Origin: Methanobrevibacter gottschalkii DSM 11977 | GTDB taxonomy: Archaea; Methanobacteriota; Methanobacteria; Methanobacteriales; Methanobacteriaceae | Direction of reading: 5' to 3' | Assembly: GCF_003814835.1 (NCBI RefSeq) | Contig: NZ_RKRG01000001.1 | Span: 372,001 to 436,000 of the forward strand | DNA length: 64,000 nt | Shown here: piece by piece, positions 4,232-55,035 of the stretch | Position numbering within the stretch: the first letter of the stretch is position 1 | How the letters are laid out: each line of letters begins with the position of its first letter | Notes under the pieces: generated by a model | The model's input: only the letters and a program-made list of their open reading frames with translations | Database searches by the model: none | What the model was told of the DNA's origin: nothing | Translations under genes and position numbers: made by a program

Positions 4232-4357
4232 TTAATCACACAATTAAATTATTAACCATTGATATATATTTAATTAATAACTTTTATAATATTGTGTAAA
4301 ATAAACATTGCTTAAATAGAAACATTTTTAAAACTAATAAATAAAATATTGATTACT

Positions 4358-5470
4358 ATGAGTACACTAGAAAAAATGAAAATTTTAACTGATTCGGCTC
4401 AATATGACTTATGTGATTATGTTAGTCATCATAAAAGTTCTCAGATAAATTTACCTGGAATTTATGAAGCAATAGGTCATAATGGATGTAAAATTCCACT
4501 TTTTAAAACACTCATGACCAATAAATGTAAAAATGATTGCAAATATTGTATTAATCAATCCAAAAGAAATTTTACAAGATTAGAACTATCACCTGAAGAA
4601 CTTGCAAGAGCGTTTCTTGGATATTATAATAGAGGATTAGTTAATGGTTTATTTTTAAGTTCAGGAATATCTGATGATGTAGACTCCACTATGGAAAAAC
4701 AAATAGAAACCGTGAGTCTTCTTAGAAAAAAATATGGTTATGATGATTATATTCATCTTAAAGTTATACCAGGAGCAAGCAGAGACTCGATTAAAAGAGC
4801 AATGGCATTAGCTAATAGAGTTAGTATCAATATTGAAGCTGCAACATCTTCAGGTCTTGCAGAATTATCATCAACAAAGGATTATAATAAAGATATATTA
4901 AAAAGATTGTCATGGATAAATTCTCTACAGCATAAAAGTACAACATATCCAAATTCTACACATACAACACAATTAATTATTGGAGCAAACAATGAAACTG
5001 ATAAAGAGATATTAAGTAGAATGGAAAAAATATACAAAAAATCAGATCTGAAGAGAACATATTTCTCAGCATTTACTCCAATTGAAGAAACAGAATTTAA
5101 AAATAAGGAAGCTTGTTCAACAGATAGAACATCAAAGTTATATAATGCAGATACTTTAATTAATTCTTACAAATATAATGTTAAAGAATTAATATTTGAT
5201 GAAAGTGATAAGTTATCTCTTACACAAGATCCGAAGATTCTAGCTGCAAAAAATATGAATATTTTTCCAGTAGAAATAAATAGTGCACCTATTAGAGAAC
5301 TTATCAGGGTTCCGGGAATTGGGGTAAAATCTGCTCATGAAATTGTATCTATTCGTAAGAAAAAACCATTTACGCATAAAGAACAACTTCAAGAATTAGG
5401 TGTTATAACAAATAGAGCAGATCCATATATTAAAATTAATGGAGAATATCAAACAACTTTTAATTTCTAG
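4358..5470 (+). CDS. Radical SAM protein of the putative DNA modification/repair family
   Basis: A 370-aa radical SAM protein. The cluster motif is CKNDCKYC (CX3CX2C) near residues 57-64. The middle holds the TIM-barrel part (LFLSSGISDDVDSTM, HLKVIPGAS). The C-terminus carries a helix-hairpin-helix (VPGIGVKSAHEIVSIRKKKP), usually a DNA-binding element. This matches the family annotated as 'putative DNA modification/repair radical SAM protein', often found beside a uracil-DNA-glycosylase-like partner; no such partner is seen here. ATG 4358 is chosen over an upstream TTG (4349) because MSTLEK is the usual start. A TATA-like TTAAATA lies near 4313-4319. The substrate is unknown. Confidence 0.85.
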   Translation: MSTLEKMKILTDSAQYDLCDYVSHHKSSQINLPGIYEAIGHNGCKIPLFKTLMTNKCKNDCKYCINQSKRNFTRLELSPEELARAFLGYYNRGLVNGLFLSSGISDDVDSTMEKQIETVSLLRKKYGYDDYIHLKVIPGASRDSIKRAMALANRVSINIEAATSSGLAELSSTKDYNKDILKRLSWINSLQHKSTTYPNSTHTTQLIIGANNETDKEILSRMEKIYKKSDLKRTYFSAFTPIEETEFKNKEACSTDRTSKLYNADTLINSYKYNVKELIFDESDKLSLTQDPKILAAKNMNIFPVEINSAPIRELIRVPGIGVKSAHEIVSIRKKKPFTHKEQLQELGVITNRADPYIKINGEYQTTFNF

Positions 5471-5591: not shown

Positions 5592-5605
5592 ATTTCAAGT
5601 GTAAA
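5592..5605 (-). repeat. Origin-recognition-box-like 14-mer
   Basis: ATTTCAAGTGTAAA is the exact reverse complement of the core box found repeatedly in the origin near 30 kb. It lies in the gap between the radical SAM gene and the 3' end of the ParB-like gene. The second element (AGAGGT) is absent, so it is a core box only. Confidence 0.6.
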
Positions 5606-5648: not shown

Positions 5649-6269
5649 TTAGTAATCATCGAATAATGCCCATATTTCAGGGTATTTTTTAGCAACAGCC
5701 TCTTCAATTAAGTTAGAAGCCTCTTTTGAAATACTAAACTCAGGTTCAGTTTTTCTTAAATATCTGAAAACCGCAGAGGATCTTGAAGACCATAACGTAA
5801 TTCTAGGATTTTTATCAACAATTTCCTTAACTTCAACTATATGTTCCTGAATTTTAGTTTCCTGAGTTGTTGATGTGTTTTTTTCATTATTTTGAATAGA
5901 TATGTTTTCAGATTCTTTAATATTCTCCGATACATCTTCCTTTAAAGTAGTTTCATTTGAATCAATAGACTTTTCTTGATTATTTTTTTCTTCCTCTATC
6001 TCTTCAAATATATTTTTTTGAGTTTCATCATTTCCAGATTCTTCAAGAGTTTCATCTTTAGAAATCTCTTCTTCATTAGAATTATTATTAACATCGTTGG
6101 AAGATTTTTCTTTAGGAGCATTTTTTTCTTCAGAATCCTTAATTTCTTCATTATTTTCAGTTTCATTCATAATATCTTCAAGAGATTGAGTAGAATTGCT
6201 ATCAAAATCTTCATTATAAAAATCTGGAATTAATGAAGCTAATCCTTTACCAAGACTTTTTCTAGCCAT
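5649..6269 (-). CDS. ParA partner with ParB-like N-terminal peptide and acidic linker
   Basis: A 206-aa protein whose start overlaps the end of parA by one base (stop/start at 6269). The first 15 residues (RKSLGKGLASLIPD) match the N-terminal peptide of bacterial ParB proteins (K-x-LG-[RK]-GL-x-x-LIP), which stimulates ParA ATPase. Residues of about 20-150 are a low-complexity Glu/Asn/Ser-rich linker. The last 55 residues form a conserved-looking basic/helical domain (SSAVFRYLRKT, ISKEASNLIEEAV). The ParB CTPase and helix-turn-helix core is missing. I infer a partition adaptor; how it would bind DNA is not known. Confidence 0.6.
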   Translation of the reverse strand: MARKSLGKGLASLIPDFYNEDFDSNSTQSLEDIMNETENNEEIKDSEEKNAPKEKSSNDVNNNSNEEEISKDETLEESGNDETQKNIFEEIEEEKNNQEKSIDSNETTLKEDVSENIKESENISIQNNEKNTSTTQETKIQEHIVEVKEIVDKNPRITLWSSRSSAVFRYLRKTEPEFSISKEASNLIEEAVAKKYPEIWALFDDY

Positions 6270-7111
6270 TATTTACCCCCAGCAACTTCAGAATCTTTTT
6301 TAACTTTGTCAATATTGGTTTTAGCAATATTTAATTGGACATTTTCATCTCTTTGAATGATTTCTTTAGCTAATTTCAAATAAGATTTAGTACCAGTGCT
6401 ATCTGGATCATAAATTAAACAAGGTTTACCGAAACTAGGAGCTTCAGCTAATCTTATATTTCTTGGAATAATAGTTTTAAAAAGTAAATTTGTTTCGCCA
6501 AAGTAATTTTTGAGTTCTTTACGAACATCTTTACTAAGTCTAGTTCTTTTATCGAATAAAGTGAGGAGAATTCCTTTTATAGGAGTTGGACTTCTAAGTC
6601 TTTTTTCAACTAATTTAATAGTATTTATCAAATCAGCTACTCCTTCGAGTGCATAATATTCAGCTTGAATAGGTATTAAGACACTATCTGAAGCTACCAA
6701 GGCATTGACTGTTATGACACCTAATGAAGGAGGCAAATCAATGAATATATAATCAAATAATGGTACAACATCTTTAAGAGTTTCTTGTAAAACAATATGA
6801 TAATTTTCACGTCTAGAAAGCTCCATTCCAGCTCCACTAAGAGATATATTACTTGGGATAATAAATAAATTTTTAATAAACGTAGGAATTGTTGCTTTTT
6901 TAACACTAATATCTCCTATAAGAGCATCGTATATTGTATTTTCTATTTTAGTTTTATCAATCCCAAAACTAGTTGTAGCATTAGCTTGAGGATCCATATC
7001 TACTACTAAAACAGATTTACCCATTACTGCTAGAGATGTTGCAGTATTAACAACAGTAGTTGTTTTACCACAACCCCCTTTTTGATTCATCACTGCTATT
7101 ATTTCACTCAT
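6269..7111 (-). CDS. parA: ParA/Soj-family partition ATPase
   Basis: A 280-aa Walker-type ATPase of the ParA/MinD superfamily. The deviant Walker A motif KGGCGKTT sits at residues 11-18, with the signature lysine. DMDPQANAT and FIDLPPSLGVITVNAL follow, as in chromosomal Soj/ParA. These enzymes move DNA by ATP-dependent nucleoid binding. It is the first gene of a two-gene unit with the ParB-N-like protein, and its promoter region is a dense AAGTTA repeat array. An RBS-like AGGAGA precedes the start. It lies about 23 kb from the predicted oriC. Confidence 0.92.
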   Translation of the reverse strand: MSEIIAVMNQKGGCGKTTTVVNTATSLAVMGKSVLVVDMDPQANATTSFGIDKTKIENTIYDALIGDISVKKATIPTFIKNLFIIPSNISLSGAGMELSRRENYHIVLQETLKDVVPLFDYIFIDLPPSLGVITVNALVASDSVLIPIQAEYYALEGVADLINTIKLVEKRLRSPTPIKGILLTLFDKRTRLSKDVRKELKNYFGETNLLFKTIIPRNIRLAEAPSFGKPCLIYDPDSTGTKSYLKLAKEIIQRDENVQLNIAKTNIDKVKKDSEVAGGK

Positions 7112-7141
7112 TAAAGAATTCTCCTGTTTATGATAAGTTTT

Positions 7142-7486
7142 AAGTTATCAGTTTTACTTATAACTTAAAAATTTAAAGGGTTAAAAGAATAACTTTTACA
7201 TTATTCAGTATAAGTTAAAAGGGTTAAGTTATATCTTTTCAGGAAAAACTTAAATGAAATAAATTATCAGTTTTAACTTCTAAGGGATAGGAATTAAGTT
7301 TTAAGTTAAAACCTCAAAGTTATAAAAAATAAGTTTTAAGAAATAACTTATCATAACTAACTTTTAACAAATAAGTTATATTTTATAACTTCTATCTTAT
7401 AAAGTATTTGTTTTCACAAATAAGTTATTAGTTATTTGTTAATAGTTATAAGTTATAACTTAAATAAAATAATAAGTTATAAGTTA
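7142..7486. repeat. AAGTTA/TAACTT hexamer array upstream of parA (candidate centromere/operator)
   Basis: This gene-free stretch holds ten AAGTTA (starts 7142, 7212, 7226, 7303, 7317, 7373, 7422, 7450, 7474, 7481) and seven TAACTT (7161, 7190, 7274, 7344, 7358, 7386, 7456), plus near-copies such as AAGTTT. A perfect 14-bp palindrome, TAAGTTATAACTTA, is at 7449-7462. No ORF crosses it. Iterated sites next to a parA gene are typical of partition centromeres, which often double as operators. The repeats are seen directly; the role is inferred. Confidence 0.7.
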
Positions 7487-17281: not shown

Positions 17282-17315
17282 AATTATTTTTTTAAAGGTT
17301 ATTAGTTATAAATTA

Positions 17316-17329
17316 TAACTTATAAGTTA
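17316..17329. repeat. 14-bp palindrome of AAGTTA type
   Basis: TAACTTATAAGTTA is its own reverse complement and combines the two hexamers of the array upstream of parA. It lies between the convergent TIM-barrel and HAD genes. It could be a transcription-end hairpin or a binding site. Confidence 0.5.
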
Positions 17330-28649: not shown

Positions 28650-29805
28650 AAAATAAGGTTGTTTCAAGTAATGTTTCATCACATTGAAGTTTAATAATAT
28701 TAGTTCTTCCTTTTCCACGACCGCGTGAGATTGTATTAGTGGAAATAATTCCTAACATTTCAAGTTCATTAATAAAGTCAAATATTCTTCTGTAAGTAAC
28801 TGCATCTTTTTTATATAAATCTGTATAAGCTTCATATAATTTACCAGATGTAATTTCTTCTTTTTGTTTTGTTAAATTTAAAATAGATTCTAAAACTCTT
28901 TGTTGTTGAAGTGGTAAAGTGGATATAATTTCAATAACTTTATTGTGTTCTATTTTATCTTTTGCTCTTTTTACATGATTATTTGTAACTTTTTCTGAAT
29001 CTTCATCAAAAGCTAATTCACCAGCATTTTTAAGTAAGTCAAGAGCATACCTTGCATCACCTTCCTCTTTAGCGGCCATTGCTGAACATAATGGAATAAC
29101 ATCATTTTCCAATACATTTTCATTAAAAGATAATTCTGCCCTTTCTTTTAAAATATCAGATAATTGATCTGCACCATAAGGAGGAAATACTATCTCTTTA
29201 TCATTTAAACTACTTGTAACCCTAGATTTAATCAAATTTTTAAAATCTAAATAATTACTTATACATAATACAGAAACATTTTCTGTTCTTGTAAGAGTGT
29301 ATAAAATTCCATCCCCATCTTTATCAAGTAAAATATCAATTTCATCTAAAATAACAATTAAATGTAACTTTTTACCAAATGCATTTGTTTTAAAAATGTC
29401 TCTAAATGTATTTACAACTTCACCTTTTGTCCAACCACGATTTGGAACATCACGTCCAAGTTTATTACATAATTCTGCAATTACCTGATATTCAGTTGTA
29501 TAATCAGTACATCTAATATATTCAACTTTAACAAAAATATTCTTTTTACGAGCAATATCAATTAATTGTTCACGGGCAAATTTTGATGCAGCTGTTTTAC
29601 CTGTTCCTGTTTTACCATATAAAGTAACATTAGACGGAGTTACATTGCTTAAAACATCAATCCAATTTTTTGCAATTTGCCTAATTTGTTCTTCTCTGTG
29701 AACTAATTTATCAGGTAACCATCTATGATCTAAAGGACGTTTATCTTTAAATATAGTAGGCCCTTGTGTTTCATCATTTTCTAAATCTTCAAAAATATTT
29801 GACAT
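28642..29805 (-). CDS. cdc6: Orc1/Cdc6 replication initiator
   Basis: A 387-aa AAA+ origin-binding protein. Walker A is [10 protein letters not shown], Walker B is [13 protein letters not shown], sensor 1 is [10 protein letters not shown], and sensor 2 lies in [16 protein letters not shown]. The C-terminal winged helix is about residues 300-387 ([33 protein letters not shown]). It binds origin recognition boxes and loads MCM. The 650-base region upstream of its start is full of such boxes, as is usual next to an archaeal orc1 gene. Confidence 0.97.
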
Positions 29806-30091: not shown

Positions 30092-30105
30092 ATTTCAAGT
30101 GTAAA
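30092..30105 (-). repeat. Origin recognition box 1 (core)
   Basis: ATTTCAAGTGTAAA, a perfect core in reverse orientation without the AGAGGT element. A degenerate relative (ATTTCAAATATAA) lies 20 bases to the left at about 30072. Confidence 0.75.
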
Positions 30106-30193
30106 ATTACATGATAAAAAACAAAATTAAAGTATATTCAATGAACTGAACATTATTTTTTAAAAAAATTATCATGATTTTAAATTAAGAGAG

Positions 30194-30214
30194 AGACATG
30201 AATTTCAAGTGTAA
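30194..30214 (-). repeat. Origin recognition box 2
   Basis: ATTTCAAGTGTAA preceded by AGACATGA. The same 8-base prefix precedes box 3, so the two boxes are a 47-base-spaced direct repeat of 21 bases with one mismatch. Confidence 0.8.
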
Positions 30215-30240
30215 CTAAATTTTGCAAAAAACAAAAATCA

Positions 30241-30261
30241 AGACATGAGTTTCAAGTGTAA
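30241..30261 (-). repeat. Origin recognition box 3
   Basis: AGACATGA then GTTTCAAGTGTAA; same orientation as box 2. Confidence 0.78.
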
Positions 30262-30345
30262 AAATTTTAGAAAAATTAAATATAAATTTGAATTAAAAAA
30301 CAAAGAAAAATGAGATTATAGAATAAAAAATCAAGTGCAAAAAAT

Positions 30346-30366
30346 AGAGATAAATTTCAAATGTTT
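30346..30366 (-). repeat. Origin recognition box 4 (degenerate)
   Basis: AGAGAT, two bases, then ATTTCAAATGTTT. It differs from the full reverse box at a few positions and abuts box 5 head to head. Confidence 0.6.
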
Positions 30367-30385
30367 ACACTTGAAATATACCTCT
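30364..30385 (+). repeat. Origin recognition box 5 (full)
   Basis: TTTACACTTGAAAT, two bases, ACCTCT. Both elements are complete. The ACCTCT part, AGAGGT on the other strand, corresponds in position to the G-string of ORBs in other archaea. Confidence 0.88.
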
Positions 30386-30411
30386 TCATTCTTAATATAC
30401 ATTCGGAAATG

Positions 30412-30432
30412 TTATACTTGAAATGTACCTCT
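30412..30432 (+). repeat. Origin recognition box 6 (full)
   Basis: TTATACTTGAAAT, two bases, ACCTCT, one mismatch in the core; followed by CTCTCTTT. It is only 20 bases from the stop of the neighbouring gene. Confidence 0.85.
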
Positions 30433-54027: not shown

Positions 54028-55035
54028 TTATAAATTATTTTTAACTTCCTCAGCTAGTTCCATAGTGGTTGCAGAACCACCTAAATCACCAGTTAAAATA
54101 TCAGCTTCATTAAGTACTTTTAATATTGCACCATCAAATCTATTAGCCGCTTCATTTTCACCAAGATATCTAAGCATCATGATAGCTGAAAGCATCATAG
54201 CTATTGGATTTGCTTTTCCTTGACCTGCAATATCTGGTGCTGAACCATGAACCGGTTCAAATAATGCAGCATCTTCACCAATATTGGCGGATGGTATTAA
54301 ACCAAGTCCCCCGACAAGACCTGCACCTTCATCGGAGAGAATGTCTCCAAAAAGATTTGTGGTTACAATCACATCAAAGCTTTCAGGTTTTGTAATAAGA
54401 TACATTGCTGTTGCATCTACATAATAATCCTCTGTTGCAATTTCAGGATATCTTTTAGCAACTTCATAGAATACATCTTTGAATAAACCATCACTTTTTT
54501 TTAATACATTGGCTTTGTGAACACCAGTTACTTTACTTTTATTATTTTCTTTTGCATATTTAAATGCATATTCAATAATGCGTTTTTCTGCTTCACGTGT
54601 AATAATGCGTCTAGCTACTGCACCTTCGTCAGTATAACTTTCTTCACCTGCAATGTATAATCCTTCTGTGTTTTCACGCACTATCATGAAATCTATATTA
54701 TCTGACAATGAATTGGTGTTGGGGTATGATTTCACAGGTCTTAAGTTAGCAAACATTTTCATTTCTTGACGTATTTTAACAATTACATCTGCTGCAGTTT
54801 CCCCTGCTGCACCAAATAAGCAAGCATCAGAATTTCTAATAATGTCTAATGTTTCATCAGGCAATGCAGTACCGTTTTTTTCAAGGCATTCATCACCAGC
54901 TTCACCATAAACATAATCAAAATTGATATTTAAAGCATTTAAAACATATATTGCCGCTTCCATTACTTCATTACCTATACCATCACCTGGAATAACAGCA
55001 ATTTTATATTTATCTTTTGTTTTTGAGGTATTCAA
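54028..55035 (-). CDS. leuB: 3-isopropylmalate dehydrogenase family protein
   Basis: A 335-aa NAD-dependent beta-decarboxylating dehydrogenase. Motifs: IAVIPGDGIGNEVMEAA, FMIVRENTEGLYIAGEE, VTGVHKANVLKKSDG, TTNLFGDILSDEGAGLVGGLG and HGSAPDIAGQGKANP. It could act on isopropylmalate, methylmalate, or homoisocitrate in coenzyme B synthesis; methanogens share these enzymes. The start is TTG 55035 with AGGTGG 5 bases upstream, overlapping leuD by 26 bases. Confidence 0.92.
   Translation of the reverse strand: MNTSKTKDKYKIAVIPGDGIGNEVMEAAIYVLNALNINFDYVYGEAGDECLEKNGTALPDETLDIIRNSDACLFGAAGETAADVIVKIRQEMKMFANLRPVKSYPNTNSLSDNIDFMIVRENTEGLYIAGEESYTDEGAVARRIITREAEKRIIEYAFKYAKENNKSKVTGVHKANVLKKSDGLFKDVFYEVAKRYPEIATEDYYVDATAMYLITKPESFDVIVTTNLFGDILSDEGAGLVGGLGLIPSANIGEDAALFEPVHGSAPDIAGQGKANPIAMMLSAIMMLRYLGENEAANRFDGAILKVLNEADILTGDLGGSATTMELAEEVKNNL

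Follow-up and report, generated by a model that had tools for sequence, protein, structure and literature searches.

A SegAB-type partition operon with a candidate heptad centromere near the replication origin of Methanobrevibacter gottschalkii

What DNA would a ParA ATPase partition when the protein encoded beside it is not ParB? The question is raised by a locus of Methanobrevibacter gottschalkii DSM 11977 in which, on the minus strand, trpB and a repeat array precede parA, followed by an overlapping partner gene. The locus lies in a 64,000-nucleotide stretch, here called the window (contig NZ_RKRG01000001.1, positions 372,001 to 436,000). The original prediction took the locus for a segregation system with a new DNA adaptor. 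SegAB orthologues in Euryarchaeota are already known (PMC5120986, PMC12284271), and their variation in that group, like the form of archaeal chromosomal centromeres, is an open question (PMC5120986). We favor, at a probability of about 0.83, reading the locus as a SegAB-type operon for chromosome partition, of a euryarchaeal subtype and with a heptad centromere/operator.

The adaptor domain is already known, and the main discovery is the heptad array. A literature search of sources other than subscription papers and preprints found no paper joining SegB with Methanobacteriales, which is not proof of novelty. Conserved in gut and hyperthermophilic methanogens, some of them cultivable, the array offers a concrete centromere sequence that can be tested. 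It also brings plasmid heptad centromeres and the ParB peptides of bacteria together with archaeal SegAB under a single proposed mechanism.

A Soj-like ATPase and a SegB-type Partner

The operon comprises the following features:
6269..7111, minus strand: parA, a soj-like Walker-type ATPase gene (280 aa; Pfam AAA_31) in the segA position of the operon
5649..6269, minus strand: segB-like partner gene (206 aa), its first codon overlapping the parA stop
6222..6269, minus strand: putative ParA-binding N-peptide of ParB type, MARKSLGKGLASLIPD (motif LG[KRM]GLxxL)
5835..6221, minus strand: low-complexity acidic linker of segB, poorly conserved (54-70% DNA identity among congeners)
5652..5834, minus strand: C-terminal SegB-type ribbon-helix-helix domain, predicted to bind DNA (matches to PDB 7DV2 and 7DUV)

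The parA product is a standard deviant-Walker ATPase, with a Walker A motif KGGCGKTTT and a Pfam AAA_31 match at E 7e-62. It scores 245 bits against bacterial ParA (8RAY) and 215 against Soj (6IUB) versus 67 against Saccharolobus solfataricus SegA (7DUT), and on these scores its similarity to bacterial Soj/ParA far exceeds that to SegA. The partner has no ParB domain and no other Pfam domain, falling below every Pfam and NCBIfam cut-off; its description as an acidic linker and a short C-terminal domain (61 aa) without a ParB core has held up. A canonical ParB encoded elsewhere was rejected as well, since ParB_N (PF02195) has no match in the organism's own genome; the same search gave nothing above cut-off in 18 genomes.

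When a profile of the last 61 residues was compared with the PDB, the best matches were S. solfataricus SegB structures (7DV2, 1.5e-10; 7DUV, 3e-10), aligned end to end, and a single-sequence phmmer comparison with SegB gave 1.2e-7. By sequence homology, the C-terminal domain is the SegB ribbon-helix-helix domain, and the operon is therefore of SegAB type. This bears out the prediction of a ParA partition operon but not that of a new adaptor, as the domain is a known archaeal one. A histone-fold reading was discarded, its weak H2B matches having E above 0.02 against 1.5e-10 for SegB. Of the two proposed routes to identifying the domain, profile search thus led to SegB, and structure prediction gave an AlphaFold model of low confidence (pLDDT 63). 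Foldseek with that model again ranked SegB 7DUV and 7DV2 first, only at E 0.15-0.24, and these matches are not counted as evidence.

Within the phylum, 136 of 152 genomes encode the partner domain, as do 85 of the 91 good-quality ones; all 20 genera tested have it, usually in one copy, and many of the 16 genomes in which it was not detected are fragmented drafts. With parA directly upstream in the same order in nearly every locus examined, the pair is conserved in relatives as foreseen, and the objection that it might lack synteny fails. In a second, larger phylum the domain is sporadic (8 of 295 genomes); four of these carriers, G055 among them, belong to a family (f10) that may be Archaeoglobaceae. 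It is also found in two genomes whose SegB resembles that of Sulfolobales.

The partner begins with MARKSLGKGLASLIPD, continues as an acidic linker, and ends in the 61-aa domain. As proposed, the ParB-type peptide is a regular feature: LG[KRM]GLxxL precedes the C-terminal domain in 61 of 64 distinct partners, with a consensus of LGKGLxSLI, and two of the three partners without it appear truncated at contig or locus ends. The likeness to the bacterial ParB peptide is by motif only; the partner N terminus presumably resembles Spo0J N termini letter for letter. Searches of the PDB and of plasmids with the 22-aa N-peptide, too short a query, found no ParB. In bacterial ParB, a ParA-binding N-peptide motif with a central Lys/Arg is at work (PMC12462528). 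Two Sulfolobales-type SegB proteins that were examined start with MSELDFLLNRKK instead, so the ParB-type peptide goes with the Soj-like ParA subtype. Among congeners the linker has 54-70% DNA identity versus 76-89% for the C-terminal domain.

A Strict Heptad Array Upstream of parA

The repeats upstream of parA form one further feature:
7134..7486, no strand: contiguous array of heptads TAA(C/G)TTA, ∼47 units in the main register, the proposed SegB-bound centromere and operator (periodicity, score, conservation)

The AAGTTA repeats that first drew attention are real: the 365 bp at the array contain AAGTTA/TAACTT 17 times, nowhere else in the window do 365 bp contain more than five copies, and dinucleotide shuffling of the array stretch, repeated 2000 times, gave a mean of 2.2 and a maximum of 8. 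What had been missed is that these are not loose repeats but units set strictly in a 7-bp register. Lags 7, 14, 21, 28, and 35 are the only autocorrelation peaks (z 5.2-7.3, versus 0.5 for the next best lag), Tandem Repeats Finder reports periods of 7, 14, and 28, and the heptad score is 118.7 over 7134-7462 (∼47 heptads in the main register) versus a shuffle maximum of 19.2. Given the shuffles, autocorrelation, and heptad score, neither chance nor low complexity explains the array. The heptads are pseudo-palindromes around C/G, and the same consensus, TAA(C/G)TTA, emerges from six Methanobrevibacter arrays (308 heptads) and from nine Methanothermobacter-type loci (72 heptads).

Array DNA of the window is 85-92% identical to that of eight congeners, with few gaps, and 71-77% identical to that of two more divergent ones; third codon positions of trpB in the same congener comparison are 45-61% identical. 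On these identities the array is under strong purifying selection. As anticipated, it recurs in relatives: heptads number 22-76 in the majority of Methanobrevibacter loci (the longest array, in locus L069, running to 76 without a slip) and 7-10 in Methanothermobacter relatives. By eye, the gene upstream of the array differs, being trpB in one case and a prolyl-tRNA-synthetase-like gene in Methanothermobacter relatives; the array is still present and hence goes with the operon. Two exceptions speak against the favored reading: no scored array was found near segAB of M. stadtmanae (G147), and none directly upstream of parA in Methanothermus fervidus (G049), whose 5-heptad sites are dispersed. 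The strict heptads, their conservation, and the proximity to the origin described below all favor the centromere proposal, and the array is very probably the long-sought centromere of the Methanobrevibacter group.

Five draft contigs (L018, L022, L042, L045, and L052) end at a point ∼105-120 bp upstream of the parA gene. Assemblies seem to break at the array, and part of the operon absences may stem from that. One genome, G159, has a second, divergent parA-segB pair (L148:5530-6753), possibly on an integrated element. It is preceded by an 8-bp-phased TAA(C/G)T array of its own upstream of parA, which suggests that each segAB pair carries its own array.

Satellite Sites and the Origin

Four further features relate the operon to the replication origin:
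17295..17329, no strand: secondary site of five heptads, flanked by two convergent genes and 10 kb away from the operon (score 29.6 versus a shuffle maximum of 19.2)
28663..28932, minus strand: C-terminal domain of the single orc1/cdc6 (PF09079, E 8e-26)
30093..30423, no strand: oriC, clustered origin-type repeats TTTCAAGTGTAA/TTACACTTGAAA beside cdc6 (repeat matches)
5593..5604, plus strand: origin-type element TTTCAAGTGTAA, 45 bp downstream of segB, kept in many Methanobrevibacter loci

Measured by the positions of cdc6 and the origin-type repeats, the array lies ∼22.6 kb from oriC, close to the ∼23 kb first estimated. Most closed or near-closed genomes, this one included, have cdc6 and segAB 10-41 kb apart, and in M. 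ruminantium (G079) the distance is 85 kb, these genomes being related rather than independent samples. There are two outliers. In G038 the distance is 310 kb, yet five heptads form an array 4 kb from cdc6; in M. fervidus segAB is 203 kb from cdc6, at which no origin-type repeats were found. Perfect copies of TTTCAAGTGTAA number 10 in the window versus 0.07 expected, and six are outside the oriC cluster (5593-5604, 19860, 32542, 40033, 43601, and 63376).

Genome-wide counts of heptad sites come from pattern searches with three heptads, for which reversed-pattern controls gave 0-1 matches at two mismatches. In closed genomes the satellite sites concentrate at or around segAB. The genome under study has sites at 371, 379, and 389 kb, those at 371 kb within a gene, and a few elsewhere. 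In M. ruminantium (2,937,203 bp) they span 2847.6-2851.5 kb, and segB is at 2853 kb. All matches in M. fervidus (1,243,342 bp) are six near-identical 5-heptad sites at 1073.6-1136.5 kb, within 63 kb of one another and 30-94 kb from segAB at 1043 kb. Five of the six share flanks and are therefore not independent copies; the sixth has other flanks. In the M. fervidus stretches examined (L110/L111, 1073573-1098067) there are five perfect copies of TTTCAAGTGTAA, elements 30-55 kb from segAB, each ∼20-30 bp from one of the six arrays. A composite origin-centromere element or a relocated origin is possible.

These sites bear on what the array does. The array and the operon's promoter overlap, and SegB should autoregulate its own genes. 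The array might then be an operator and nothing else, through which SegB represses its operon while the true centromere lies elsewhere, the more so as the heptads of plasmid pSM19035 also overlap promoters (PMC9499535). Yet ∼47 tandem heptads go far beyond the need of repression, intergenic satellite arrays lie near the origin at genes unrelated to segregation, and the M. fervidus sites are away from the segAB promoter, which together make a purely regulatory role improbable.

Relation to Known Partition Systems

Like the SegAB systems of Sulfolobales, the operon has overlapping segA-segB order, a homologous C-terminal ribbon-helix-helix domain, and sites both upstream of segA and dispersed. 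The geometry is also alike. ChIP-seq of S. solfataricus SegB gave a consensus of TCTAGA-S-TCTAGA (PMC12284271), which, read in register, is an AGA-S-TCT heptad flanked by a half heptad on each side, that is, 7-bp-spaced and C/G-centered. Unlike in Sulfolobales, the ParA is by its scores Soj-like rather than SegA-like, the partner has a ParB-type N-peptide where the two Sulfolobales-type SegB proteins have MSELDFLLNRKK, and the sites form a long contiguous TAASTTA array, where Sulfolobales have a single 13-bp palindrome or a few. As a counterpoint to the favored reading, the heptad letters differ from the Sulfolobales site, which by sequence search is absent near the array: TCTAGASTCTAGA is not matched near the operon even with three mismatches allowed, and in the window it does not exceed chance level, its consensus being one from Sulfolobales only that is expected to differ in Euryarchaeota. 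No site was found near segAB of Thermococcus sibiricus either, where the motif was judged degenerate and different sequences were expected in Euryarchaeota (PMC12284271).

The delta/omega/parS system of pSM19035 likewise pairs a ParA with a small ribbon-helix-helix partner that has a free N terminus, and its parS consists of contiguous 7-bp repeats, in either orientation, over promoters. One dimer binds each repeat with low affinity for a single one, and at least four contiguous heptads are needed for ParA activation (PMC9499535). The ∼47 heptads at 7134-7462, upstream of the ParA gene, exceed that threshold. In contrast to pSM19035, the Pfam scan detects no omega family in the partner, the repeats are TAASTTA rather than WATCACW, the setting is a chromosome rather than a plasmid, and up to 76 repeats are found rather than 7-10. 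With bacterial ParABS (Soj/Spo0J) the operon shares a Soj-like ParA, the ParB-type peptide, and an origin-proximal position, but the partner lacks the ParB CTPase/helix-turn-helix domain. Bacterial parS (TGTTTCACGTGAAACA) has no match near the operon; the window holds one match with three mismatches, at 54589, which is chance level.

The array might instead be bound by some other protein, such as a chromatin protein, a replication initiator, or a regulator, and adjoin segAB incidentally. The link between SegB and the array is one that we infer here, and the M. fervidus heptads are accompanied by origin-type elements. However, the array follows segAB across genera despite different flanking genes, its 7-bp phasing suits tiling by ribbon-helix-helix dimers, and the second segAB pair of G159 has its own array, so that this account is less probable still than an operator alone. 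ParA/MinD proteins position other cargo in some systems (PMC12462528), but a partner with a SegB DNA-binding domain next to a conserved array near the origin leaves only a negligible chance that it is an adaptor for non-DNA cargo.

A Proposed Mechanism

In the favored SegAB-type partition operon, ATP-bound ParA would coat the nucleoid. SegB dimers would bind TAA(C/G)TTA through their ribbon-helix-helix domains, one dimer per 7 bp, so as to tile the 330 bp of array that precede the operon as well as the smaller satellite sites near the origin. Long acidic linkers could then hold out many LGKGLxSLI peptides to ParA dimers, and binding of these ParB-type peptides would trigger ATP hydrolysis, such that the origin-proximal partition complex would follow a receding ParA gradient. 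SegB on the array would also autoregulate the operon.

A wider proposal stands at about even odds. The SegB proteins of archaea and mobile elements may share one centromere grammar of contiguous C/G-centered 7-bp pseudo-palindromes (AGA-S-TCT, TAA-S-TTA, and TGA-S-TCA) whose letters diverge by clade, with the array placed inside segB linker DNA in some loci and, in M. fervidus, fused to Orc1/Cdc6-type origin elements. A 7-bp period is present in SegB-linker DNA at L138:1692-2468, L137:4728-5162, and L143:6354-7394, with z up to 10 in L138, where the repeat is TGASTCA-like; L137 and L138 are presumably viral contigs. Amino-acid repeats give multiples of 3 and are thus not sufficient to account for this period, and L137 and L138 lack a 7-bp periodicity in parA. 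It is as if the centromere array sat within the segB gene at these three loci.

Other Observations

In genome G594 (L140:6489-7298) the SegB linker consists of identical 14-aa (42-bp) repeats, 42 being a multiple of 7. Heptads are not claimed for such Metallosphaera-type linker repeats, as the lag-7 peak is modest (z 4.7) and non-7 peaks are comparable. In the window, positions 4349-5470 encode a radical SAM and helix-hairpin-helix protein, TIGR03916-like (6.6e-88, under the family cut-off), with a putative role in DNA modification or repair.
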